A stretch of DNA of 64,000 nucleotides from Hymenobacter sp. 5317J-9 (GTDB lineage Bacteria > Bacteroidota > Bacteroidia > Cytophagales > Hymenobacteraceae), in the NCBI RefSeq assembly GCF_022921075.1, contig NZ_CP095050.1, positions 3,348,001 to 3,412,000 on the forward strand, in the 5' to 3' direction. Both the position numbers and the translations under genes were made by a program. The notes under the pieces are model-generated. The model searched no databases. It was not told the origin of the DNA and was given only the letters and a program-made list of their open reading frames with translations. Shown in pieces: positions 14,659 through 57,699 of this stretch (position 1 is the stretch's first letter; each line of letters opens with the position of its first letter).

Positions 14659-15615
14659 TTATTTGACCGGCGCCACGCCACTGGTGGTCTGCACGATGGG
14701 CTGAATGGTGCCGTCGGGGTTGTAGCGCAATTCATCCACACAAATGGAGCGCCGGTAATTGCCGCCGGTGGGCAGGGCGCCGTTGTGGTAGAAGAAGTAG
14801 CTCTTGCCCTTGTAGTCGATGATGCCCGGGTGCGTGGTAAAACTATTGGGCACGTTTTCCTGTATGATGCCGCGGTAGGTCCATGGTCCAGTGGCGCTGG
14901 GGCCCGTGCAATACTCAATCATTTCGGGCTTGGTGCCGGCGCCGGCGTACACGAGGTAGTACAGCTTTTTGCGCTTGTACACCCAGGGGCCTTCGATGTA
15001 GTTCTTGATGTTCAGCACCGTAATGGGGCCCGCCAGCTCCGTCAGGTTGTCCTTTAGCTTCACCCAGCGGCAGCTTAAGTTGCCCCAGTACAGGTAGGCC
15101 TGCTGGTCGTCATCAATGAAAACGGTGGGGTCGATATCGTCCCAGGCGTGCGGCTTGTCCTTGGTCATCTCGTTCACAATAAGCGCCTTGCCGATGGCGT
15201 CCCGGAACGGGCCGGTGGGCCGGTCCGACACGGCCACGCCAATGGCCGCGCCGCCCTGGCTGTGGTCGTCTTTCTTGTGGAAGGTGGCCACAAACCAGTA
15301 GAACTTGCCCTTGTGATACACGCACTGCGAAGCGTAGGCATCGCCGGTAGCCCAGGCAAAAGTTTTAGGGGACAAGCGCTTGCCGTAGTCTTTCCAGTGC
15401 ACCATGTCGGTGGTGGAATAGATGCGCCAGTCCGGCATCTTGTAGTTGGTCTCGCTAACCGAAGCCGTGTCGTGCCCGGTGTACAGAAACAGCGTGTCGT
15501 GGTACACGAGCGGCGCCGGGTCGGCCGTGAACACGTCGCGGATAATCGGGTTTTGCGCCCAAAGCGAGGCGGTGGCTACGCAGGCCAGCAGGCAGGTAAG
15601 CAGGATGCTTTTCAT
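14659..15615 (-). CDS. Secreted GH43 glycosidase, single domain
   Basis: From the ATG at 15615 this is a 318-residue single-propeller GH43 with signal peptide MKSILLTCLLACVATASLWAQ. The open frame extends 78 codons upstream into the esterase gene, but that part has no signal and lies antisense-like to real coding sequence, so it is rejected. The base is D32 (FTADPAPLVYHDT), the modulating Asp sits in DDIDPTVFIDDD, and the acid Glu in YIEGPWVYKRKK. It ends in TTSGVAPVK with no extra binding domain. Most likely an arabinofuranosidase or xylosidase; the MPDWRIYSTTDMVHW loop resembles the GH43 arabinan/arabinoxylan group. The upstream esterase gene stops 65 bases before its start. Confidence 0.87.
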   Translation of the reverse strand: MKSILLTCLLACVATASLWAQNPIIRDVFTADPAPLVYHDTLFLYTGHDTASVSETNYKMPDWRIYSTTDMVHWKDYGKRLSPKTFAWATGDAYASQCVYHKGKFYWFVATFHKKDDHSQGGAAIGVAVSDRPTGPFRDAIGKALIVNEMTKDKPHAWDDIDPTVFIDDDQQAYLYWGNLSCRWVKLKDNLTELAGPITVLNIKNYIEGPWVYKRKKLYYLVYAGAGTKPEMIEYCTGPSATGPWTYRGIIQENVPNSFTTHPGIIDYKGKSYFFYHNGALPTGGNYRRSICVDELRYNPDGTIQPIVQTTSGVAPVK

Positions 15616-15680
15616 GGTAAAGACAGCAGGAATGAAGGAGTTGACCGGCTTAATAAGGCCGGCCAGGGTGCATAAATCGC

Positions 15681-17651
<1,971 letters not shown>

Positions 17652-45548: not shown

Positions 45549-45849
45549 AGCCACCGGCTCAAGAATCGGGCATTTCGTATACGTATATGTAATGCCGGCT
45601 TTCCCTTTACGATAGTTGACCGGGTGGCGCAGGAATCAGAACTTCGCGCCTCCCGACCACCATTTCATTATTAATATGAAAAAATAGCTTTTTCATTTTG
45701 AAAAAAATGCCCCCGTCAAGCCTCGTGCCTGGCGGGGGCATTTTTATTTATACACTTGATTTAAAATTACTTACAGACAATATAGCGAAATTATTACTGA
45801 ACCGGCACTGGTATTGGCATTAGGTGCAAGTCACCAAACACACGCTGCC
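45549..45849. other. Intergenic stretch between the regulator and the ABC-type cluster
   Basis: About 300 AT-rich bases. They hold a small imperfect inverted repeat around cgtatacgtata (45574-45585), the terminator at 45701-45746, and a short leader before the coiled-coil gene. No clear TAnnTTTG box was recognised. Confidence 0.5.
45701..45746. terminator. Intrinsic terminator
   Basis: Seven A, then tgcccccgtca (45708-45718) pairing with tggcgggggca (45730-45740) with one wobble, then a T run. It can end transcription from the regulator gene and blocks read-through into the ABC-type cluster. Confidence 0.8.
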
Positions 45850-46548
45850 ATGGCCATTCTTGATAACCTCACCAAAGCCGCGAAGGACTTCTTCATCGAA
45901 GACGATGGGGCGCCCCGCCCGGCCCCCGCGCCCGCCCCGGCGGTAGCGGCGCAGCCCACGCCGGCCGCGCCGCTGGCTGCCAGCCCGGCGCCGCTCGTCA
46001 CCCAGGCTGAGCAGCGCCACCTCGACCACATTGCCGGCCTGCTGGCCGGCGACGGCAAGGACTTCGGGGCCTACACCAAGATGGTGAACAGCATGGCCGG
46101 TAGCGGCCTCACCGGCCCCCTGCTTTACCAAACGGCCTTCAACGCCTTTTCGGCCCTCACCGGCGTGAACCAGACGGCCCTGCTGGCCTCGGCCGAGCAG
46201 CTGGCCACCAAGCTGGCCGAAGACCGGGCCCGGGTGCTGCAGCGCCACCGCGAGAAAATGGGCGAAAGCCCGGATTCTAAAGCCGCCCCCGGCCCGCTGG
46301 CGCTGCTGCAACAACGCGAAACGCAGCTGCAAGCCGAAGTGGCCTCCCTCACCGAGCAGCTGACCCAGAAAAGCCAGCAGCTGCGCGAAATCCAGCAGCA
46401 GGCCCTGGCCGAAAAGCAGAAAACGCAGGCGGCGTTGGCCTCCTATGAGCTGGCCAACGCCGCCGCTGCCGCCGACTTGCAAACGCACCGCAAGGCGGCC
46501 CAGAACTTCTTGAATCCCTCCTCTTCCACCACTTCTTCAAACGCCTAA
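45850..46548 (+). CDS. Ala/Pro-rich helical coiled-coil protein of the ABC-type cluster
   Basis: A 232-residue protein without signal peptide or membrane segment. Residues 1-20 are an amphipathic start (MAILDNLTKAAKDFFIEDD), 21-55 a Pro/Ala linker, 56-125 a compact helical region (AEQRHLDHIAGLLAGDGKDF ... GPLLYQTAFNAFSALTGV), and ~135-215 a long Gln/Glu-rich coiled coil (QQRETQLQAEVASLTEQL). The tail is Ser/Thr-rich. An upstream in-frame ATG at 45814 is less likely than the one at 45850. I do not recognise a named family. It ends four bases before the PspA-like gene, so the two are translated together and may interact through their coiled coils. Confidence 0.8.
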   Translation: MAILDNLTKAAKDFFIEDDGAPRPAPAPAPAVAAQPTPAAPLAASPAPLVTQAEQRHLDHIAGLLAGDGKDFGAYTKMVNSMAGSGLTGPLLYQTAFNAFSALTGVNQTALLASAEQLATKLAEDRARVLQRHREKMGESPDSKAAPGPLALLQQRETQLQAEVASLTEQLTQKSQQLREIQQQALAEKQKTQAALASYELANAAAAADLQTHRKAAQNFLNPSSSTTSSNA

Positions 46549-46552
46549 CCCC

Positions 46553-47548
46553 ATGAATACTTTGCTCACAACTACTTCTGATACCGACACCGGCCTCCCC
46601 AAGTGGCAGAAGCCGGAGAAAGTGGCCGGCCGCCTCGTGCTGCTGGGCCTGGCAGGCACGGCCGTGTACTACTGGGGCGTGATTCTGCCCTTCCTGGTCG
46701 ACATGGTATTCAACAGCGTGAAGCTGGGCATTGGGCTGGGCGTGCTGTTCGTGCTGTTTTTGCTGGCCACGAACAAGCGCATCCACGCCGGGCTGTGGTA
46801 CGCCGGACAGCGGGTGCTGCGCACGCTGGCGGGAATTTTCGTGAATACCGACCCCATCGGCATCATGCAGGACTACATCAAGAACACCGAGCAGGAAGCC
46901 CGCAAGATGGACGCCGAAGTGACCAACATCGAAGGCGCCCACGAGCTGGTGAAGCGAAAGCTGGCCGCCAACGATGCCCAAATGAAGGAATACCTGGCCC
47001 TGGCCAGCTCGGCCGCCCGCCAGAACGAAAAGGACATGGCCGAGAGCTACGCCAGCCGCGCCGCCCAGCTGGAGGACTACAACAAGCGCCTGCAGCCCAT
47101 GGCCACCACCACCGCCAACGTGAGCGTGGTGATGCGCCAGATTCTGAAAGCCGCCCTGCGCCAGATTGACGGCAGCAAGTTCAAAGTCAACCTCTTGAAA
47201 GACGAATACGAGCTGGTGAAACGCACCAGCTCCGGCATGCGCGCCGCCATGAACATCCTGCGCGGCGACCCCGACAAGAAGTACTTCTTCGACCTGGCCA
47301 CCGACCGCGTGGCCCAGGACATGGCCCAGCAGCTGGGCCAAATCAAGCAGGCCATGCGCTACTCGCAGGAGTTTGTGAAGGAGATGGACATTCAGAACGG
47401 CGTGATGAGCGAGAAGGGTCAGCGCTTACTCACCAAGTACCAGAACGGCGATTTCAACGCCGTGCTCAACGAAAAACCCCAAGCCACCCAATCCTTCGCC
47501 GCCACCAAAAAAGCCTCCGATGATGCCTATTCTAGCCTGCTTGATTAG
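46553..47548 (+). CDS. Membrane-anchored PspA/IM30-like coiled-coil protein
   Basis: A 331-residue protein with two membrane segments near the N-terminus (about 27-48 and 53-70: LVLLGLAGTAVYYWGVILPF; LGIGLGVLFVLFLLAT), followed by long helices. The stretch from about residue 98 (VNTDPIGIMQDYIKNTEQEARKMDAEV...) through the alanine-rich helices (ARQNEKDMAESYASRAAQLEDYNKRL) has the layout of PspA/IM30/Vipp1 proteins, though PspA itself lacks the membrane segments. The similarity is by eye and moderate. In a cluster with an OmpA-fused binding protein and an ABC pump, a role in envelope stress or membrane organisation is an inference. Confidence 0.75.
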   Translation: MNTLLTTTSDTDTGLPKWQKPEKVAGRLVLLGLAGTAVYYWGVILPFLVDMVFNSVKLGIGLGVLFVLFLLATNKRIHAGLWYAGQRVLRTLAGIFVNTDPIGIMQDYIKNTEQEARKMDAEVTNIEGAHELVKRKLAANDAQMKEYLALASSAARQNEKDMAESYASRAAQLEDYNKRLQPMATTTANVSVVMRQILKAALRQIDGSKFKVNLLKDEYELVKRTSSGMRAAMNILRGDPDKKYFFDLATDRVAQDMAQQLGQIKQAMRYSQEFVKEMDIQNGVMSEKGQRLLTKYQNGDFNAVLNEKPQATQSFAATKKASDDAYSSLLD

Positions 47549-47714
47549 CTTTTTGCTGGCCTGCGGCCTGGTGAGTCTGCTGGGCCAGCCGGCGCCCGTG
47601 ACGGTGGCGCCTCATGCCGCTTCGGTAGAACGTCATGCCGAGCACAGCCGAAGCAACTCGCTCGCCCGGCATCTCACCCCCCGGCCCCCTCTCCAAAAAA
47701 GAGGGGGAGCCTAA
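47520..47714 (+). CDS. Possible small lipoprotein whose 3' end is repeat-derived
   Basis: A 64-codon frame overlaps the end of the PspA-like gene by 29 bases. Its N-terminus looks secretory (PILACLISFLLACGLVSLL, with a lipobox-like LLAC). After about residue 36 the sequence is encoded by repeat remnants (family A-like cgtcatgccgagc, then family C), giving a typical repeat-translated tail (LTPRPPLQKRGG). It may be a real small gene truncated by repeat insertion, or chance. Confidence 0.3.
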   Translation: MMPILACLISFLLACGLVSLLGQPAPVTVAPHAASVERHAEHSRSNSLARHLTPRPPLQKRGGA

Positions 47715-47768
47715 CGCCAGCGCATAGCCGGTGCCCCCTCTCTTTTGGAGAGGGGGTCAGGGGGTGAG
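47672..47768. repeat. Intergenic inverted repeat, family C
   Basis: Arms about 47672-47698 (ctcaccccccggccccctct...) and 47743-47768 (...ggagagggggtcagggggtgag) pair with few mismatches. It lies in the 300-base spacer between the PspA-like and OmpA-fused genes, the only wide gap in that cluster. A diverged family A fragment lies just before it (47630-47660). Confidence 0.75.
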
Positions 47769-47848
47769 GTTGACGCCTGCCCCCAAAACAACCCAAAAAT
47801 CAACGCGCCCCAAATCGGGCGCCCCACTCCTCTTTTGCCTTACCTAAA

Positions 47849-49627
47849 ATGACAACACGTGGTAAATTCGTAATCGGCCTGCTCATCGTAGCCGCCCTTT
47901 ACTTCGGCATCAACAAGCTCATAGCCAGCGGTGCCGTCTTCAAAAAAGCCGAAACCGAATCGGTACTCCTCAACTCCATCGAGCTGCCCGCCGCCACCGG
48001 CGGCAACCGCGCCAACATCGTGGTGCCGCTGGCTCCGCTGCCGGGCACCGCTCCCGCCGAAAAAGGCACGCCCGTGGTGTGGGAGGTGATGGCCTGGAAC
48101 AGCCAAATGGCCGGCATGCTGGCCAACGGCGGCCCCCGCACCACCATGGGCTCGGCCCTGGCTGCTAATGGCGTGGACCTGCAGATTGTGCGCCAGGACG
48201 ATGTGAGCAAGATGCAGGCCGACCTGGTGAAAAACGCCCTGGACCTGCAAAACAACCCCGCCACGCCCGGCCTGATTGTGAGCATCATGGGCGACGGCCT
48301 GCCCGCTTTTTCGGCGGTGCAAGCTGAATTGCAGAAGACTGGCACGCAGCTGCAGATTCTGCCCTACTCGGTAGGTAAATCCTTCGGCGAAGACAAGCTG
48401 ATGGGCCCCAAAGAGTGGCTTGACAACCCCAAATCGGCTCTGGGCAAAACCATTGCCTGCTACCTGCGCGACGGCGACCAGAACATCGCCCTGAAATGGT
48501 GCGCCGACAACGGCCTGAAAGTGAACCCTGACGAAACCACCTACGACCCCGAAGCCGTGAACTTTATGGCCGCCAGCGACTTTCTGGTTGCCGCTGAGAA
48601 GTACATCCTCGGCAAGCCCGAAGCCCGCACCAAAGTGGTGAACGGCAAGAACACCGGCGTGAAGGTGGACGTGGCGGCCGACGCCGTGGCCACTTGGACG
48701 CCCGGCGACGTGAACATTGCCAAGCAGCGCGGCGGCCTCGTCAACATCGTGAGCACGAAGGACTACTCCAACCAGATGCCCAACATCATGGTGACGACCA
48801 AGCGCTGGTACGATGCCCACCAGAAGGAAGTGCTGGGTTTGATGACGGCCTTTGCCGTGGCCGGCGACCAGGTGAAATCGCACCCCGAAGCCCTGACCCG
48901 CGCCGCCGACATTTCGGCCACCGTGTACGGCGACCAGGACAAGCCCGGCGCCTACTGGCTGAAGTACTACAAAGGCGTGAGCGAAGCCGACCGCAACGGC
49001 GAAGTGGTGGAGCTGGGCGGCAGCAAAGCCTTCAACTTCAGCGATAACCTGAGCTTGTTTGGCCTCGACGAAGGCGGCACCAACGTGTACGCCGCCGTGT
49101 ACAAAACCTTCGGTGATGTGCAGAAAAAGCTCTACCCTAAAGAACTGCCCAGCTACGTGCCTCTCGACCAGATGCTGGACCTGACGCCCCTCAAAAAGCT
49201 GCAGGCGCAATACAAAGGCAAAACCGTGGCGCCGGCCGAAACCCAGCAGTTTGCCGCCGATGACGAAATCCGCCAGAGCGTGAGCAAGCGCGCCTGGAAC
49301 ATCGCCTTCAACTCGGGCCAGAGCACCTTCACTCCCGCCGCCGAGCGCGACCTCAACCAGCTCTTCAACGACCTCGTGGTGGCCGGCCGCCTGAAAGTGG
49401 CCGTGCACGGCCACACCGACAACACCGGCGACCCGCAGAAAAACCAACAGCTCTCCGAGGACCGCGCCATGGCCGTGGAGCACTGGCTCGAAGCCAAAAG
49501 CCGCAGCGCCTTCCCCGACGGCCGCGTGCAAGTGTACGCCCACGGCGCCACCGAGCCGCTAGCCAGCAACGCCACCCCCGACGGCAAAGCCAAGAACCGC
49601 CGCGTGGAAATCGTGCTGGGCAACTAA
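47849..49627 (+). CDS. Membrane-anchored ABC solute-binding protein fused to an OmpA domain
   Basis: A 592-residue protein. Residues ~7-28 are one uncleaved membrane segment (FVIGLLIVAALYFGINKLIA). Residues ~65-430 form a periplasmic binding-protein domain of the nitrate/taurine/phosphate type (VVWEVMAWNSQMAGMLANGG ... LIVSIMGDGLPAFSAVQAEL ... MPNIMVTTKRWYDAHQKEV). Residues ~485-592 are an OmpA/MotB peptidoglycan-binding domain (FNSGQSTFTPAAERDLNQLF; HGHTDNTGD; LSEDRAMAVEHWLEAK; KNRRVEIVL). The protein would thus bridge the inner membrane and cell wall while presenting a solute-binding module to the permease encoded next. The ligand is unknown. Confidence 0.88.
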   Translation: MTTRGKFVIGLLIVAALYFGINKLIASGAVFKKAETESVLLNSIELPAATGGNRANIVVPLAPLPGTAPAEKGTPVVWEVMAWNSQMAGMLANGGPRTTMGSALAANGVDLQIVRQDDVSKMQADLVKNALDLQNNPATPGLIVSIMGDGLPAFSAVQAELQKTGTQLQILPYSVGKSFGEDKLMGPKEWLDNPKSALGKTIACYLRDGDQNIALKWCADNGLKVNPDETTYDPEAVNFMAASDFLVAAEKYILGKPEARTKVVNGKNTGVKVDVAADAVATWTPGDVNIAKQRGGLVNIVSTKDYSNQMPNIMVTTKRWYDAHQKEVLGLMTAFAVAGDQVKSHPEALTRAADISATVYGDQDKPGAYWLKYYKGVSEADRNGEVVELGGSKAFNFSDNLSLFGLDEGGTNVYAAVYKTFGDVQKKLYPKELPSYVPLDQMLDLTPLKKLQAQYKGKTVAPAETQQFAADDEIRQSVSKRAWNIAFNSGQSTFTPAAERDLNQLFNDLVVAGRLKVAVHGHTDNTGDPQKNQQLSEDRAMAVEHWLEAKSRSAFPDGRVQVYAHGATEPLASNATPDGKAKNRRVEIVLGN

Positions 49628-49654
49628 TCCCTAAGTGACACCCAACAAAAAGAA

Positions 49655-49756
49655 GGTCATGCTGAGCGAAGTCGAAGCATCTCGCGTGTGGTAGCAATCA
49701 ACGCTACTTCAACGAAGCGATAGAGATAGAGATGCTTCGACCAACTCAGCATGACC
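49655..49756. repeat. Intergenic inverted repeat, family A variant
   Basis: Arms 49655-49683 (ggtcatgctgagcgaagt...) and 49729-49756 (gagatgcttcg...cagcatgacc) pair imperfectly. It lies between the OmpA-fused binding protein and the permease, with a T run after it on the plus strand, so it may reduce downstream expression. Confidence 0.75.
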
Positions 49757-49776
49757 GTTCTTTTTTCTCATTCCCA

Positions 49777-50553
49777 ATGAAAACCTTATTCGCCCCCAAT
49801 GCCCAGCCGCGCCGCATCGTCTTCACCTCCATGGTGGTAGCGCAGGTGGCTCTGCTACTGCTGCTGTGGGTGTTCTACCCCATGCAACTGTTCCCTAGCC
49901 TGGGCGAGGTCGTCCGCGCCCTCGGGGACCTCATTACCAGCCAGGGCCTGATTCCGGAGCTGTGGGCCAGCATGACCACGGCCCTCGAAGCCCTGGCCGT
50001 GGCCACGGTGCTGGCGCTGGCAATCTCCTACCTCACGGCGCTGCCGTTCTTCCGGCCCATTGCCTACGCGGCCTCCAAGATGCGCTACCTCACCCTCACC
50101 GGCCTCACCTTCTTCATGGCCCTGATGGTGAGCTCCGGACACCAGGTGAAGCTCTCGGTACTCATCTTCGGCGCCACGGTGTACTTGGTCACGGGCATGA
50201 CGAGCGTGATTCTGACCACTACGCAGGAGGAAATGGACCATGCCCGCACCCTGGGCATGAGCGAGTGGCGCAGTTTCTACGAAGTCGTGGTGCTGGGCAA
50301 GCTCGACGACATGCTGGAAGTGGTGCGCCAGAACTTCGCCATCATCTGGACCATGATTACGCTGGTCGAAACGCTTTACCAAAGCGAAGGCGGCATCGGC
50401 CTGCTGCTGTATAAGCAGAACCGGTATTTGCACCTCGATGGCGTACTGGCCATTCAACTTGTGATTTTGGCCACCGGCGCCATGCAGGACTACGTGTTTG
50501 TGCTGCTGCGGAAGGTGTTTTTTCCTTATTCCTCTTTAGGAACATCCGCCTAG
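49777..50553 (+). CDS. ABC transporter permease (nitrate/sulfonate-type)
   Basis: From the ATG at 49777 (258 residues) this is an integral inner-membrane permease of the binding-protein-dependent type, with about six hydrophobic segments (for example VVAQVALLLLLWVFYP; ALAVATVLALAISYLTAL; VLIFGATVYLVTGMTSVIL). The cytoplasmic loop that contacts the ATPase is visible as EMDHARTLGMSEWRSFYEVVVLGKLDDM. An earlier ATG at 49732 lies inside the repeat and is rejected. It pairs with the OmpA-fused binding protein before it and the ATPase after it. Confidence 0.9.
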   Translation: MKTLFAPNAQPRRIVFTSMVVAQVALLLLLWVFYPMQLFPSLGEVVRALGDLITSQGLIPELWASMTTALEALAVATVLALAISYLTALPFFRPIAYAASKMRYLTLTGLTFFMALMVSSGHQVKLSVLIFGATVYLVTGMTSVILTTTQEEMDHARTLGMSEWRSFYEVVVLGKLDDMLEVVRQNFAIIWTMITLVETLYQSEGGIGLLLYKQNRYLHLDGVLAIQLVILATGAMQDYVFVLLRKVFFPYSSLGTSA

Positions 50554-50555
50554 CG

Positions 50556-50698
50556 GGCGCCTCACCCCCCGGCCCCCTCTCCCAAAGGAGAGGGGGTGCC
50601 TGCCGACTTCTCGTCATCCCTTCAACCCGAATTAGCTCGCCCGCGCCGCCGTGGCCCCCCCCTCTCCTTTGGGAGAGGGGGCCGGGGGGTGAGGCGCC
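50556..50698. repeat. Intergenic inverted repeat, family C (41-nt perfect arms)
   Basis: Arms 50556-50596 and 50658-50698 are perfect reverse complements over 41 bases, the longest in the window, and each arm carries its own ctctcccaaaggagag hairpin. It fills almost the whole spacer between permease and ATPase. Confidence 0.88.
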
Positions 50699-50711
50699 AA
50701 TCAGAACAACC

Positions 50712-51542
50712 ATGACTGCCCTCCCTTTCAACTACAAAGAGCCCATCCTCACCCTGAGCAACATCTCCATGTCGTTCCACGGCGAGACCATCCTGCGCGA
50801 CATCAACGCCCAAATCCTCGACGTGACGCGGCCCAACATGAGCCAGGGCCAGGTGGTGGGCTTCTACGGCCGCTCGGGCATCGGCAAGTCGGTGCTGTGC
50901 CGCATCATGGCGGGGCTCATCCGGCCCAGCGGCGGCACCGTGGAAGTGGGCCAGGCCCAGCAGGCCGTGGAGCCCGGCATGGTGGGCTTCGTGCAGCAGC
51001 GCTACCCGCTGTTCGACCACCGCACCCTGCTCGACAATCTCCTAGTGGCCGCCCAGCGCAAGCACGCCCCTGAGGCTGCCCGCCAGCACGTGGATATGTA
51101 CCTGGAGCGGTTTGGCCTGGCGCCGCACGCCCGCAAGTACCCGGCCCTGCTCTCGGGCGGGCAGCGGCAGCGGGCGGCCATCGCCCAGCAGCTGCTCTGC
51201 TCCGACCACCTCATCCTGCTCGACGAGCCTTTCTCCGGCCTCGACGTGGCCATGATTGACGAGTTGAAGCGCATCATCGTCGAAGTCACTACCATGGACG
51301 AGCTGAACACCGTCGTCATCGTCTCGCACGACCTCGTGACCACCACCGCCCTGGCCGACCGCCTCTGGCTGCTGGGCCGCGAGCGCGACGCCAGCGGCCA
51401 GTTCCTGCCCGGCGCCACCATCAGCCCCCGCCACCAGTACAACTTGGCCCAGCTCGGCCTGGCCTGGCACCCCGACGTCGAAGCCGAACCAGAATTCGCC
51501 CAGTTTGTGGCCGAGATTAAGGAGGAGATTCGGGGGAGTTAG
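50712..51542 (+). CDS. ABC transporter ATP-binding subunit
   Basis: A 276-residue cytoplasmic ATPase. Walker A GRSGIGKSVLC (about residues 54-64), Q-loop near GFVQQRYPLF, signature LLSGGQRQRAAIAQQL, Walker B LILLDEPFSGLD and H-loop VIVSHD are all present, so it should be active. The C-terminal ~40 residues (YNLAQLGLAWHPDVEAEPEF) extend beyond the core. It completes the transporter with the permease (49777) and OmpA-fused binding protein (47849). Confidence 0.94.
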   Translation: MTALPFNYKEPILTLSNISMSFHGETILRDINAQILDVTRPNMSQGQVVGFYGRSGIGKSVLCRIMAGLIRPSGGTVEVGQAQQAVEPGMVGFVQQRYPLFDHRTLLDNLLVAAQRKHAPEAARQHVDMYLERFGLAPHARKYPALLSGGQRQRAAIAQQLLCSDHLILLDEPFSGLDVAMIDELKRIIVEVTTMDELNTVVIVSHDLVTTTALADRLWLLGRERDASGQFLPGATISPRHQYNLAQLGLAWHPDVEAEPEFAQFVAEIKEEIRGS

Positions 51543-51693: not shown

Positions 51694-52767
51694 ATGCAAC
51701 CAACGTCTACTATCCGCCGCCGCAAACCGCCAATGACAAAAATCTTGATTGAAAGTGCGGTGGCTTTCATGGGGCAAGCTGTAAATCTTCAGAATGCAAC
51801 ACAAATAGCTCAACGTCATGAAAAAGTCGCCATTGCAATGGCAACGGCGTGGGAAAAAATTTTAAAGGCTTTTCTCTATCGTATTGATAGAAGAATTATT
51901 TATTATCCATTGCCTAGGGTTCAAAGAGGACAACCAAGGCCTAAAAGAAAAACCCTGTCTTTGGACAGGTGCCTAGATGAAGTTCAGAACAGACTAGGAA
52001 AGCCTTTTGAGGCCACAAAAGCCATTATCGAGCAGGCCGGTGAATACCGCAATGAATGTATTCACTTCTATGGCGAACGACTTGATGCTGTTTTGATGCC
52101 TTTATTCTCGCAATGTTGCTTAAACTTTAGTGAGTTTTTGAGGCAGCATTTCAGCAGGGAGTTATTCTCAGAGCTCGAGCTTGCCATTCTTCCTCTGGCA
52201 TACCAACTGCCCTTCGTTGCAGAGGACTTTTTAACCACACATAACGCCAGTCACGGAGCGAGTCAAGAGGTCAAGGATTTCTTGCAGGGCTTAACCGACG
52301 TTGGCCGGCGGCTACATGAAAGTGGGCACACTGACTCTATTTTGGTGAAATACCATCTTGCACTTGTAAGTGTTAAAAATTCTGGAGAAGCAGATGGCGT
52401 TGTCCACGTCGACAATGCGGCTCCATCTGACACAACAATTCGGATTGAACGCCCAGTACAGGGCGAGATTCGTCTCACATCAAGTAGGAATGCTGCAATT
52501 GTGCGACTTTCTGACGATGATTTGCCTCGCCATGGCTATGTGCTCGGCTACCAGGACTTATTATTCCAAGTCATGAAAGAAGGGTACAAATGGGATGAAG
52601 GAGTTAAGAATTTCGTCAAAAGCTTAAGAGAGGACGCTAGTCTTTGCTACGTTCGCAAAGCAAACCCAATGAGTGTAAAAAGCTCCACTACATGCCTTTA
52701 CCATACTGATGTACAAGCTCGCTTAATGGAATACTTGTTAGCAAAAGGCGCACGACGGGCAGCTTAA
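51694..52767 (+). CDS. DUF3644/HEPN-like protein, probable horizontally acquired
   Basis: A 357-residue cytoplasmic protein unlike its neighbours. Residues ~15-70 form two helices of the type seen in DUF3644 (ILIESAVAFMGQAVNLQ; KVAIAMATAWEKILKAFLYRI). At 119-124 the sequence RNECIH gives R-x4-H with Asn after Arg, the catalytic motif of HEPN ribonucleases. The C-terminal ~130 residues (LGYQDLLFQVMKEGYKW ... YHTDVQARLMEYLLAKG) resemble a DNA-binding or recognition region. The gene is AT-rich: 23 of 60 bases at 51781-51840 are G/C, against 44 of 60 at 52861-52920 in the next gene. HEPN proteins often act as toxins or defence effectors; that role is inferred. A second start at 51733 is possible. 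It ends 12 bases before the sigma-54 regulator. Confidence 0.75.
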   Translation: MQPTSTIRRRKPPMTKILIESAVAFMGQAVNLQNATQIAQRHEKVAIAMATAWEKILKAFLYRIDRRIIYYPLPRVQRGQPRPKRKTLSLDRCLDEVQNRLGKPFEATKAIIEQAGEYRNECIHFYGERLDAVLMPLFSQCCLNFSEFLRQHFSRELFSELELAILPLAYQLPFVAEDFLTTHNASHGASQEVKDFLQGLTDVGRRLHESGHTDSILVKYHLALVSVKNSGEADGVVHVDNAAPSDTTIRIERPVQGEIRLTSSRNAAIVRLSDDDLPRHGYVLGYQDLLFQVMKEGYKWDEGVKNFVKSLREDASLCYVRKANPMSVKSSTTCLYHTDVQARLMEYLLAKGARRAA

Positions 52768-52779
52768 TTACAAGTAACC

Positions 52780-54138
52780 ATGCCCACCGGAACCCTCCTA
52801 ATCATCGACGACGAGGCGCGCTTGCGCCAGTTGCTGGCCCAGGTGCTGGAGCTGGAAGGCTACGCCGTGCTGCAAGCCCCCGACGCCACCCGCGGCCTGG
52901 AGCTGCTGCAGCAACACGCCGACGAGGTGCTGCTGGTGCTCTCCGACGTGAAGCTGCCCGACGCCAACGGCGTGGACCTGCTGCCCCGCCTCAAAGCCGC
53001 CGCACCCGATGCCGAAGTGGTGCTGCTCACCGCCTACGGCACCATCCCGGATGGCGTGAAGGCCATGAAGCTCGGCGCGTTCGACTACCTCACCAAGGGC
53101 GATTTTGAGCAGCAGCTGGTGGTCGTCGTCGACCGCGCCGCCGAAAAAGCCCGCCTCCGCAAGCGCGTCACCGAGCTGGAGCGCCGCATGGGCCAGCGCC
53201 ACACCTTCGAGGCCATGATAGGCGCCTCGCCCGAGCTGCAGCGCGTGCAGCAGCTGGCCCGCCAGGTGGCCCCCACCGACAGCACCGTGCTGCTGGAAGG
53301 GCCCACCGGCAGCGGCAAGGAGCTTTTTGCCCAGGCCATCCACCAGGCCAGCGCGCGCAAGGCCAAGAACTTCGTGGCCGTGAACTGCAGCGCCTTTCCC
53401 AAAGACCTGCTCGAATCGGAGCTGTTTGGCTACCGCAAAGGCGCCTTCACCGGCGCCCTCACCGACAAGAAAGGCCTGCTGGAAGAAGCCAACGGCGGCA
53501 CCCTGTTTCTGGACGAAATCGGCGAGCTGGAGCTCAACGTGCAAGCCAAGTTCCTGCGGGTGCTGGAGCTGCAGCAGTTCGTGAAGCTCGGCGACACCAA
53601 GCCCACCAACGTGAACCTGCGCATGGTGGCCGCCACCAACCGCAACCTCAAGCAGGAAGCCGCCGAAGGCCGCTTCCGGCCCGATTTGTACTACCGCCTC
53701 TCGGTGTTCACCATCCAAGTGCCGCCCCTCAAAGACCGGCCCGCCGACGTGGCCCCGCTGGCCCAGCACTTCCTGCGCGACTTCGCCGCCAAGCTCAGCA
53801 AGCGCCTGCCCGGCCTCGCCCCCGAGGCCCTGGCCCTGCTGCAGCGCTACCCCTGGCCCGGCAATGTGCGCGAGCTGAAAAACGTGCTGGAGCGCGCCGC
53901 CATCCTCGCCCCGAGCGGTGAGCCGTTGTCGGCTGACTTTCTGCCCGATGAGTTTCACGCCCTCGGCCGCCCTGCCCGCCCCGGTGCCGACGCCGCCGAC
54001 GACAGCCTGCGCGCCCTCGAAGCCAGGCACATCGAGAAACTGATGCGCGAGCTGGACGGCAACAAGCCCGAAGTGGCCAAGCGCCTAGGCATTGGACTGA
54101 CGACGCTATACAGAAAGCTGGAAGAGTACGGGTTGTAG
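52780..54138 (+). CDS. Sigma-54-dependent NtrC-family response regulator
   Basis: A 452-residue regulator with all three domains. Receiver (1-125): acidic D10/D11, phospho-acceptor D56 (LSDVKLPD), K106. AAA+ (about 145-375): Walker A GPTGSGKE (174-181), the sigma-54-contacting GAFTGA (221-226) and Walker B TLFLDE (241-246), with RPDLYYRLSVF and WPGNVRELKN. The C-terminal FIS-type HTH is at ~420-450 (PEVAKRLGIGLTTLYRKLEEYG). It needs RpoN for transcription activation. Likely partner is the kinase at 57700, which has the same orientation, with a hybrid kinase between them on the other strand. It converges with that kinase, with only 21 bases between the stops. Confidence 0.95.
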   Translation: MPTGTLLIIDDEARLRQLLAQVLELEGYAVLQAPDATRGLELLQQHADEVLLVLSDVKLPDANGVDLLPRLKAAAPDAEVVLLTAYGTIPDGVKAMKLGAFDYLTKGDFEQQLVVVVDRAAEKARLRKRVTELERRMGQRHTFEAMIGASPELQRVQQLARQVAPTDSTVLLEGPTGSGKELFAQAIHQASARKAKNFVAVNCSAFPKDLLESELFGYRKGAFTGALTDKKGLLEEANGGTLFLDEIGELELNVQAKFLRVLELQQFVKLGDTKPTNVNLRMVAATNRNLKQEAAEGRFRPDLYYRLSVFTIQVPPLKDRPADVAPLAQHFLRDFAAKLSKRLPGLAPEALALLQRYPWPGNVRELKNVLERAAILAPSGEPLSADFLPDEFHALGRPARPGADAADDSLRALEARHIEKLMRELDGNKPEVAKRLGIGLTTLYRKLEEYGL

Positions 54139-54159: not shown

Positions 54160-57100
54160 CTACGGCCTGCTCCCCGTGAGCTCCAGCAGCAGCTGGCAGA
54201 GGGCGGCTTCTTCGTAGGGCTTGGTGAGGCAGGCGTTCATGCCGGCGGCTAGGTAGGCGGCGCGGTCGGCCTCGAAGGCATTGGCGGTGAGGGCGATGAT
54301 GGGCACGTTGGCGCGGGCCGGGTCGGGGTGGCGGCGCAGGGCCTGGGTCACCTGCACCCCGCTCAGGCCGGGCATGCGGATGTCGAGCAGGGCCACGTCG
54401 AAGGAATATTTCAGCAGTTGGGCCAGCGCGTCGAGACCGTTGCCCACGGCCTGCACCTGCACGCCCCAGTGCTCCAGCACGGCCACGGCAATGCGCTGGT
54501 TCACGGGGTTGTCTTCGGCCAGCAGCACGCGCAGGCCGCGCAGGCCTTCGTAGGATGCCTCGGCGGGCGCGGGCGTTTGCAGGGCCGGGCCCTCGGTGGC
54601 GCGGGGCAGCACCAGCTGGAAGGAAAACGTGGTGCCCAGCCCGGGCTCGCTGTAGAGCTGCAGGCTGCCGCCCATCTGCTCCACCAGCTGCCGGCTGATG
54701 GCCAGCCCCAAGCCGGTGCCGCCGAAGCGCAGGCTGGTTTCGGCGCTGGCCTGGGCGAAGGCCTCAAAAATGTGGGCCTGCTGGTCGGGGGCGATGCCGA
54801 TGCCCGTGTCCTGCACCCAGAACCTGAGCAGCAGCTCCTGCGCGGTTTCGTGCAGCACCCGCGCGCCCAGCTGCACGCTGCCGCGCTCCGTGAACTTGAT
54901 GGCGTTGGAGAGCAGGTTGAGCAGCACCTGGTGCAGGCGGTAGGCGTCGCCCAGCACGCGGGGGCCCGTGGGGGCCGGCAGTTCAATTTCGAGGTGCAGG
55001 CTTTTTTCGGCCGCCAGGGCGGCCACGGTTTGCCCGGCGCCCTGCAGGGCCACGGCCAGGTCGAAGGAGGCGTGGTTGAGCTCCAGGTGATGGGTGGTGA
55101 TTTTGGCCATGTCGAGCACGTCGTTCAGCAGGGCCAGCAGGTGCCGGCCGGCGTGCTGCATGGTGTTGAGGTACTCGCGCTGCGGGTCGGTGAGCGGGGT
55201 TTTCTGCAGCAGCGCGGCCATGCCCAGCACCCCGTTGAGGGGCGTGCGGATTTCGTGGCTCATGCGGGCCAGAAAGGCTTCTTTGGCCAGGGCGTTTTCT
55301 TCGGCTTCGCGCTTGGCTTGCTGCAGCGCCTGCTCGGCCTGCACGGCCGGGGTCACGTCGTAGCCCGAGGCCACCACGTAGGGCGGCGCGCCGGCTTCCA
55401 GCACGGGGTAGGAGTAGCAATGCACGTGGCGGCGCTCGCCGGCCCGGGTGAGCACCACCAGGGTCTGCTCCTGGGTTTGCAGGGTCATGTCGCCATCGAA
55501 ATAAGCCTGCAGCGCGGCGCGGCTTTCGGGGAGCACAATGTCGTGCAGATAGCTGCCCACCAGCTCATTGGCGGGCCGGCCCAGCAGCCGCTCAACGGCG
55601 GGATTTACGGAGAGCAGCTTGCCGTGCAGGTCGTGGGTGCAGATGAGGGCCTGCGAGTAGAATACCAGGTCGTGGTACTGTTTCTCGCGGCGCTCCAACT
55701 CCTGGCGGGCCCGTTTCACGGCCGTGACGTCGGTGCCCACGCTGAGCACGCCGAGCTGGCCGTCGGGGCGCTGCATGGGGCGTTTTTCCACTTCATAAAA
55801 GCGGGTTTCGCCGCTAGTGAGCGTGAAAGGCAGCTCCCGGGCCTGGGGCCGCTGGGTGGCGCGCACCAGGGCGGTGAGCCCGTGCAGCTGGCGCACTTCT
55901 TCGGCCGTTACGGGGTCGCTGTCGGGGTTTTGCTGGTGCTGCGCTTGGGCCGACAGGCTCCGGAAGGCCTCGTTGGTAAACGACACGCTGCCGTCGGGGT
56001 CGCTCATGTAGATGACGTTGGGCAGGGCATCGAGAATCTGGCGCACGAAAGTTTCCTGGGCCCGCAGCATGGCCTGCACGTTCTGTTGCAGCTTTTCGGC
56101 GGTGTAGCGGGCAGTGATGTCGATGCCCGCCCCCACCACAATGCGCAACGTGCCGTCGGGCTCGAACACGGGCCGCAGGTGGCGCAGCATGAGCTGGGGC
56201 CGCTGCTTGTGGTCGGTGCGCATTTCTTCCCAGGTCACGTCGGCGCGGGTGCGCACGGCCAGGTTGAAGTACTGCTCCCGCTGCTGGCGAATCCCGTCGG
56301 GCTGCTGCTTGCGGCGCAGGGCAAAGTATTCCTCGTTGGTCAGGCCAATGATTTGCCGGCGCACGGCAGGGTCCGAAATCGACGCCGGATTCACGAACAG
56401 AAACCGGTGCTCGGCGTCGAACACGGCCACGTCGACGGGCAGCAGGTTGAGAATGGACTCGTAGAACGTTTGTTGCCGCAGGAGCATTTCCGCGGCCAGC
56501 GTGCGCTCCGTGATGTCGACGCCGGAGCTGATGACGCGGAGCGAGCCGTCGGGGAGGCGCACTGGCCGGTAGCGCAGCAGCACGTGCACGGGCCCGTCGG
56601 GGCCAGAGCGGGTTTCTTCCCAGGCCTGCTCCTGCTGCGTGCGCAGGGCTTCGGCAAAGGCCGCGGCGCGGCGCTGGCTGATGGCCGCCGGCCGCTGCCG
56701 CTGGGCGCAGGCCTCGGCGCTGGTGCGGCCCAGCATCCAGGCGCGGGTGGCGGGGTCGGGCTCCACGGCGGGGTTCACGAACAGGTAGCGGTGCGCGTCG
56801 TCGAACACGGCCACGGCCGACGGCACTTGCTCGAGCACGCCCTCGTAGAAAGCCGACTGGGCGAGGAGCCGCTGCTCGGCCAGGTGGCGCTCGGTCACGT
56901 CGCGGTAGCATATCAGCCGCCCGGCCCCCAGCGGGTCCAGCACCAGGTAGTCCAGCTCCAGCACGCGGCCGTCGGCCAGCACAAAAGGCTCCTGCAGCAC
57001 CGTCTGCCCGGCCGCGTGCAGCGCCCACGCCCGCCGGGTGAATGCCTCGGGGTCTTCAAAAGCCGCTTCAATGCGCACGGCGGCGGGCGGAATGGCCGGG

Positions 57101-57402
57101 CCACCCTCGGCCGGTCCGGCCACCGGCGGCAGCCCAAACAGGTCCCAGAAGTGCTGGCTCACAAACTGAATCTGCCCCTCGGAATCAACCTGCATCAGGC
57201 CCAGACGCAGGTTTTGCACCAGGGCCATGAGCTGGGCGTGCTCGCGCCGGGCCCGCACCACTGAGCCGGCCAGTTGCTGCTCCAGGGCAGCCACGCGGGC
57301 CTGCGCTTCGGCCAGCGCGGCCTCGGCCTGCTCACGGCCGGCGCGCTCTTGCTCCACGCGGGCGGCCCACTCGGCGGCATCGGCAGAAGGGGATGTTTTC
57401 AT
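54160..57402 (-). CDS. Multi-PAS hybrid sensor histidine kinase
   Basis: From the ATG at 57402 this is a 1,080-residue soluble hybrid kinase with no membrane segment. Order: a coiled coil (about 12-60, [21 protein letters not shown]), five PAS domains (about 60-700; two near-identical units with the [16 protein letters not shown] and [16 protein letters not shown] repeats), HisKA with [11 protein letters not shown], HATPase ([27 protein letters not shown]) and a C-terminal receiver ([10 protein letters not shown], phospho-acceptor in [10 protein letters not shown]). A longer frame to 57501 includes a promoter-like box and is rejected. A typical phosphorelay kinase; input and partner unknown. 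It lies between the sigma-54 regulator and its likely kinase. Confidence 0.92.
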
Positions 57403-57699
57403 GGCCAGAACGTGGAATACGCCGCGCGCCGCGCCGGCAGCGCCCGAAACGGGCAGCTCCCGCCAGGCGCCAACGGCGGAACCGGCCCGGCAGCCCAACA
57501 AAGGTCGAACCCCGAACAGAGATAGCCAACTGTAATATTCTTAGCTCTCATGCTATTAATCGATTATGGGCCATCTACCCGCACGGCTGCTTGGGCCCAT
57601 GCGGGCGTGTGCCGCGGCGCGGGCACGCAGGCCCTAGCTTCGCGCCCGGGTTGGCCGCCGCAGGATTGCGCGTTTTTTCCGGTTCCAGCTGCTTGTTTC
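57403..57699. other. Divergent spacer between the two kinases
   Basis: 297 bases. The half near 57500 holds the box for the hybrid kinase; an AT-rich patch at 57530-57565 probably carries the promoter of the plus-strand kinase. An in-frame ATG at 57550 would extend that kinase by 50 residues without a signal or family match, so it is treated as leader. Confidence 0.45.
57499..57506 (-). promoter_or_regulatory. Candidate -7 box for the hybrid kinase
   Basis: Minus strand reads gACCTTTG (one base off TAnnTTTG), with TTG 20 bases upstream (57527-57529), about 95 bases before the ATG at 57402. It lies inside the longer possible reading frame, supporting the shorter start. Confidence 0.3.

Follow-up and report, generated by a model that had tools for sequence, protein, structure and literature searches.

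The five genes and their products

Here we describe a five-gene unit of Hymenobacter sp. 5317J-9, located in a stretch of 64,000 nucleotides of contig NZ_CP095050.1 (assembly GCF_022921075.1), which is called the window in what follows and whose positions serve as coordinates unless another locus is named. Five open reading frames (ORFs), A to E, all on the + strand and all with intact frames, were confirmed inside 45850-51542, in agreement with an earlier note that had reported the cluster. Since the same order recurs in bacteria and in phages, down to a median pairwise identity of about 16-40%, chance is excluded as its origin. The unit could encode a wall-tethered ATP-binding cassette (ABC) importer coupled to a PspA/VIPP1-like scaffold.

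Gene A (45850..46548, +) encodes a soluble protein of 232 amino acids (aa) for which no family match was found above threshold. Its N-terminal part holds a short conserved motif, K-D-[LF]-F, a Pro/Ala linker comes next, and the C-terminal part is a coiled coil; no transmembrane (TM) segment was detected in 141 of 142 homologues. Gene B (46553..47548, +; 331 aa) encodes a protein in which a helical hairpin of the PspA/VIPP1 kind is preceded by two N-terminal TM helices. A candidate homology between A and B was rejected (hhalign probability of 1.9%).

Gene C (47849..49627, +; 592 aa) joins in one chain an N-terminal membrane anchor, a solute-binding domain of the TauA/NrtA type (approximately residues 73-452; 48065..49205, +) and an OmpA-like peptidoglycan-binding domain (residues 487-584; 49307..49600, +), as indicated by Pfam and by an AlphaFold2 (AF2) model. 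Gene D (49777..50553, +; 258 aa) probably encodes a NitT/TauT-like permease of a type I importer, and gene E (50712..51542, +; 276 aa) an ABC ATPase with intact motifs. As a correction, the most likely start of D is 49777, in a frame that is open from 49732. The match of the window's D to BPD_transp_1 is weak (17.2 bits, with a cut-off of 26.4), while the SsuC model recognizes it with an E value of 6e-6 and a phage homologue of D reaches 27.8 bits against BPD_transp_1, above the cut-off. The assignment of E is supported by 85 bits against ABC_tran, and in 136 of 154 homologues simple patterns found the Walker A, signature, Walker B and H-loop motifs all intact.

The intergenic gaps measure 300 (B-C), 149 (C-D) and 158 bases (D-E), and each of them contains inverted repeats resembling repetitive extragenic palindromic (REP) elements (47668-47768, 49647-49764 and 50556-50698, respectively), those between D and E having arms of 41 bases that are 100% complementary. 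Because of these gaps and repeats the joint transcription of A to E is not self-evident, though the gene order is conserved. The core sequence of the repeats recurs elsewhere in the window, and in about 15 related loci a gene resembling those of REP-associated transposases sits between D and E.

A binding protein tied to membrane and wall

The AF2 model of C, built on a 28-sequence alignment, is confident (predicted local distance difference test, pLDDT, 87.7; predicted template modelling score, pTM, 0.85). Its middle part superposes on TauA (6ssy; Z 25.2, 290 of 297 residues, 3.3 Å), with NrtA, CmpA and SsuA following at Z of about 22, and its C-terminus on the OmpA-like domain of TagL (5m38; Z 18.4, 1.4 Å). 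At the sequence level, the OmpA-like domain scores 71.1 bits against PF00691 (cut-off 27.2), the match of C to NMT1 is weak (E 0.009), and a profile of the binding domain found no match among PDB sequences. On the basis of the modelled folds, C combines a solute-binding protein of the TauA/SsuA/NrtA/CmpA type with a domain for peptidoglycan binding. In 28 diverse homologues, many of which share only 30-48% identity, 59 columns are invariant, and many of these are polar residues of the binding domain. In the OmpA-like domain D524 and R539 are invariant in the same 28 homologues; we take them, by analogy with OmpA of A. baumannii, to be the Asp and Arg that hold the diaminopimelate of peptidoglycan.

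In nearly all homologues C has one N-terminal TM segment, a predicted anchor, and no lipobox. Together with the OmpA-like domain, this supports the previous proposal that C is anchored twice, in the inner membrane and in the wall. The further argument, that tethering to the wall leaves a binding protein little scope as a free solute carrier, does not hold: tethered binding domains supply known type I importers, as lipoprotein binding proteins and OpuA/GlnPQ do, and transport by C-D-E is likely, judging from the sequences, because conservation extends to the binding fold, many of its polar residues, the permease and the ATPase motifs. The movement of lipids, also suggested at that time, finds no support, the fold of C being that of TauA/NrtA and not of a lipid carrier.

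A membrane-anchored relative of PspA

That B is PspA-like, as was first noticed from its letters, is a point on which Pfam (below threshold), the AF2 model, Foldseek and hhalign agree. Residues 100-233 of the model superpose on VIPP1 (7o3w/7o3x) over 134 aa at 1.1-1.3 Å, and the Foldseek list for the model is headed by VIPP1 chains (E 5.6e-3). Furthermore, a profile of Hymenobacter-type B aligns with 15 PspA sequences of Bacteroidota at an hhalign probability of 71%, the alignment starting from a shared DP[IF] motif; DP at the start of α1 is common to Hymenobacter-type B and to canonical PspA of Bacteroidota. According to the model, B carries an ESCRT-III-like α1-α3 hairpin, for which polymerisation and membrane remodelling are predictions. 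We name B PspA-like, and not a PspA, because its PspA_IM30 score stays below the gathering cut-off. As the genome encodes a separate canonical PspA elsewhere (121 bits), B is an additional, membrane-anchored relative.

Linkage and distribution in Bacteroidota

The tested genomes belong to Bacteroidota, and the best 80 of 167 genome loci were surveyed, nearly all of them from Hymenobacter. B is carried by 76 of 101 Hymenobacter genomes. Across the phylum the module is rare: strong scores for the binding domain were obtained in only 8 of 395 Bacteroidota genomes. In a survey with hidden Markov models, the order A-B-C-D-E on one strand was kept almost throughout 106 loci. The unit is spread across the genus Hymenobacter and sporadically over other Bacteroidota, and it occurs, unexpectedly, in viral contigs. 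Linkage in the loci examined is thus near-absolute, and the absence of conserved linkage, which had been named as grounds for abandoning the proposal, is not what is found. No carriage of the binding domain on plasmids was found. The copies of Flavobacteriaceae are chromosomal, two of them (L209 and L210) lying directly beside the ATP synthase operon.

Directly after E, a gene for an AAA+ ATPase is present in certain lineages, of the CbxX type in Flavobacteriaceae and of a different type in six phage loci; none follows E in the window and in most Hymenobacter loci. In addition, some Hymenobacter genomes contain variant operons (L235, 3820-6995; L236, 4330-7175; L237, 6429-9411) in which A and B are retained and the ABC part is replaced by a single membrane-anchored protein with the motifs VELGASGFNSF, DIGSGNTK and IIGGVPFE. 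These resemble motifs of GppA/actin-type ATPases, with weak Pfam matches (E 0.06-0.08). B-type genes of this variant class (31-35%) occur in about 16 of 101 Hymenobacter genomes; A-B may therefore be a reusable core whose third component is the variable part.

The unit in the genomes of huge phages

A tblastn search of phage records found all five genes, in order, in LR756500.1, a genome of 462 kb from an uncultured phage, which was the only annotated phage record with the module. A scan of IMG/VR that used the alignment found 129 contigs, many of 200-578 kb, of which the best 80 were inspected. Among 90 viral loci the exact A-B-C-D-E order is present in 74, and most of the others are cut by contig ends.

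Hallmark genes accompany the module in many of these contigs. A T4-type major capsid protein was found in 20 of 50 contigs tested and in 0 of 14 control genomes, a tail sheath in 15 of the 50, and one or both in 24, the remaining 26 giving no match in the capsid/sheath search, so that the phage nature is supported for the hallmark-bearing contigs. LR756500 carries capsid and terminase genes, and in the contig of locus L129 the capsid gene lies about 10 kb from the module and the tail sheath and neck genes 5 kb from it. One Hymenobacter-like contig of 51.5 kb (L015, IMGVR_UViG_2627853892_000001), with 84% identity, the regulator and kinase neighbours described below and no hallmark found, is in all likelihood a fragment of a Hymenobacter chromosome filed as viral.

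A tree of C was built from 96 representatives; it is unrooted, and Hymenobacter is over-represented among its bacteria. Most of the diversity in it is viral, and the bacterial sequences take up at least three separate positions: Hymenobacter forms one clade, Flavobacteriaceae fall inside one viral clade and other Bacteroidota inside another. The starred branches force at least three changes between host and virus, which may have run either way. Moreover, the pairwise identities of the five proteins correlate with one another (Spearman 0.51-0.80; 0 of 500 permutations as high). Since they rise and fall together, the cassette moves as a unit.

Putative control of the operon in Hymenobacter

Upstream of A, 32 bases before its start, lies a sigma54-like -24/-12 element (CGGCAC-N5-TTGGC; 45803..45818, +) that is conserved in the genus. 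Taken alone, the single exact match in the window could be due to chance, 0.57 being expected. Across the genus Hymenobacter, 45 of 77 loci carry the pattern [CAT]GGCA[CT]-N5-TTGG[CA] in the region that precedes A, as compared with 0.26% of shuffled regions; it stands approximately 30-55 bases before A, with the GG-N10-G spacing kept and the flanking sequence diverged. RpoN is encoded in the genome.

Downstream of the operon, a response regulator of the NtrC type that acts with sigma54, assigned by Pfam, is encoded at 52780..54138 (+) and would probably be the regulator of the unit. A homologue of at least 70% identity is found near the module in 42 of the 65 Hymenobacter loci that offer enough room. 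Loci with the element tend also to have the regulator (two-by-two counts of 32/10/10/13, Fisher p 0.014, uncorrected for relatedness), and diverged paralogous operons have neither of them. A hybrid sensor kinase encoded convergently (54160..57501, -), whose homologues (62-87% identity) stand beside the regulator in ten related loci, may be the partner of the latter. Altogether, this arrangement suggests that in Hymenobacter the operon is probably switched on by sigma54 and the neighbouring response regulator. In this respect the genetic context agrees with the earlier proposal, since the element and the adjacent sigma54 regulator recall control of the stress type, like that of psp by PspF.

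A possible machine for envelope maintenance

We favour the reading, whose chances we hold to be about even and which derives from sequence comparisons and predicted folds, that the five genes encode an envelope-maintenance machine in which a wall-tethered importer is coupled to a PspA/VIPP1-like scaffold. C, D and E would form a type I (NitT/TauT-like) ABC importer, with C spanning the distance from the inner membrane to the peptidoglycan. B, held in the membrane by its two TM helices, would show its ESCRT-III-like hairpin on the cytoplasmic face and form a scaffold that surrounds the transporter or lies close to it, and A would be a soluble partner tuning B. When the envelope is under stress, the complex would preserve the integrity of the inner membrane and its attachment to the wall, with the uptake of a small, probably anionic solute as the energy-using or sensing input of the complex. 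In Hymenobacter its expression would depend on sigma54 and the neighbouring response regulator, and in huge phages the cassette would serve to maintain the functions of the host envelope while the infection lasts. Indeed, the preservation of the cassette order in dozens of giant phage contigs suggests that phages employ the cassette to manage the envelope of the host in the course of infection. The AAA+ ATPase gene found after E in some lineages fits the same reading, because such a gene has been reported for PspA/Snf7 operons (PMC11237479).

Several observations weigh against this proposal. The match of B to PspA_IM30 (28.0 bits, E 2e-6) lies under the gathering score of 33.9, its AF2 model is of middling confidence (pLDDT 66.7), and BAR domains give a higher Z than VIPP1 for this model, helical hairpins fitting many folds. 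Besides, a profile of phage-type B has no direct match to canonical PspA, so that its kinship to PspA depends on the link via Hymenobacter-type B (57% in a profile comparison), in addition to position and topology. The -12 part of the promoter-like element reads TTGG, where TTGC is usual for sigma54. Finally, A and B diverge fastest (median identity of 0.16-0.18) and C, D and E slowest (0.34-0.40), and the stronger conservation of the latter is also compatible with simple uptake in which the coiled-coil proteins are accessory.

This last point leads to the possibility, which we regard as real though short of probable, of a nutrient importer with accessory proteins. C-D-E would import a sulfonate, nitrate, phosphonate, bicarbonate or a vitamin-like compound, the phage copy would be an auxiliary metabolic cassette feeding the infected cell, A and B would position or regulate the transporter and the OmpA-like domain would hold the binding protein. 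The fold shared with TauA, SsuA, NrtA and CmpA, the invariant and often polar columns of C, the intact ATPase motifs and the far better conservation of C, D and E all speak for it. Nevertheless, A and B are never dispensed with, the unit being complete in 74 of 90 viral loci and in nearly all bacterial ones, with exceptions mostly at contig ends; no recurrent linked metabolic gene was found in the phage loci, and the context in Hymenobacter points to stress-type control by sigma54. It is also conceivable, with a rather low probability, that the complex transports nothing and is a signalling or mechanical device, comparable to BceAB or FtsEX, that senses the state of the wall or a solute and recruits or releases the PspA-like protein. 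The double anchoring of C, its PspA-like partner and the regulator gene nearby in Hymenobacter would suit such a sensor; yet the permease appears to be of the importer type (BPD_transp_1/SsuC) and not of the MacB type, and an intact ATPase and a conserved binding domain fit transport equally well.

An objection of another order, which we consider very improbable, is that the viral contigs are bacterial fragments wrongly called viral, in which case the module would be no more than an operon of sporadic occurrence in bacteria. L015 is likely one such case, and roughly half of the contigs tested gave neither capsid nor sheath; nevertheless, the capsid gene is frequent in the contigs and absent from the controls, sheath genes recur, and both the vicinity of structural genes to the module in L129 and the capsid and terminase of LR756500 refute the objection for contigs that bear hallmarks. 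Coming back to the envelope-maintenance machine, it can be extended into a wider and decidedly tentative scenario, which we rate as rather doubtful. In huge myoviruses the trans-envelope machine would be an ancient core accessory that keeps the inner membrane of the host energised and free of leaks, be it during a long infection or in the face of defences that attack the membrane. Bacteria would on several occasions have acquired it from phages, or passed it on to them, and would have added stress control.

Relation to known systems

The system is not categorically new, since all its parts are known folds and a bacterial operon was noted in one sentence of a 2024 mSystems survey of PSP systems, as PspA/Snf7 with AAA+ and ABC components (PMC11237479). 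That operon is very probably the same bacterial system. Its mention does not include the phage copies, the fixed five-gene order, the promoter, the regulator or the family tree, and the operons concerned include the AAA+ gene that is missing after E in the window and in most Hymenobacter loci. No description of the phage copies was found in the literature searched, and the main text of the huge-phage paper speaks of unspecified membrane/surface proteins only. As far as this literature goes, the variant with A-B only and the promoter element are apparently undescribed, and so are the tree of the unit and its fixed five-gene form in huge phages.

The classical psp operon resembles the unit in its PspA-type protein, in its envelope context and in the control by sigma54 and an enhancer-binding protein that is suggested for Hymenobacter. 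It differs in that PspB/PspC are absent here from the five genes and from the recurrent neighbours, B has TM helices of its own, an ABC importer belongs to the unit and the regulator is not PspF. The NitT/TauT importers (TauABC, SsuABC, NrtABCD, CmpABCD) share the binding fold, the type of ATPase and, probably, that of the permease; their binding protein is free or lipid-anchored, whereas the one described here combines a membrane anchor with an OmpA domain, and the link with A/B is obligate. With MotB/PomB, TssL/TagL and ZorB the unit has in common an inner-membrane protein that reaches the peptidoglycan through an OmpA-like domain, which here is carried by an ABC solute-binding protein, no ion-channel motor subunit being present.

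The envelope-maintenance genes of the PspA/ESCRT-III superfamily got their name from the response of the host to phage. A strictly conserved cassette of many huge phages, combining a PspA-like protein, an ABC transporter and a peptidoglycan anchor, inverts this story, raising the question of whether giant phages bring their own machine for membrane repair and wall tethering. Moreover, it gives an account of a set of phage genes to which PHROGs for the most part assigns no known function, and a cultivable Hymenobacter with a defined promoter-like element offers a compact system in which ESCRT-III-like proteins would cooperate with an ATP-driven transporter.

Other genes near the unit

Between the operon and the presumed regulator, the window encodes a DUF3644 protein (51694-52767), of a family frequent in mobile or defence-related regions. 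A reading of the operon itself as a defence system was rejected, the PADLOC matches being generic only (OmpA/MotB-like, ATPase). An alternative genetic code, considered for one phage tail-sheath gene on account of three TAA, was likewise rejected, since the frame is open for 806 aa.

The phage modules repeatedly have in their neighbourhood a protein of about 155 aa that is secreted, rich in beta structure and without family match (11 cases in a first survey, 18 in a second; L108, L114-L116, L118, L119, L128, L129 and others), and in 22 phage loci it is followed by a small protein of acidic composition (about 149 aa). SPFH proteins are partners of PspA in Bacillus. In L129, a membrane-anchored protein resembling the SPFH/band-7 family, recognized by eye and without a Pfam SPFH match, is encoded at 15208-16392, 1.7 kb downstream of the module.

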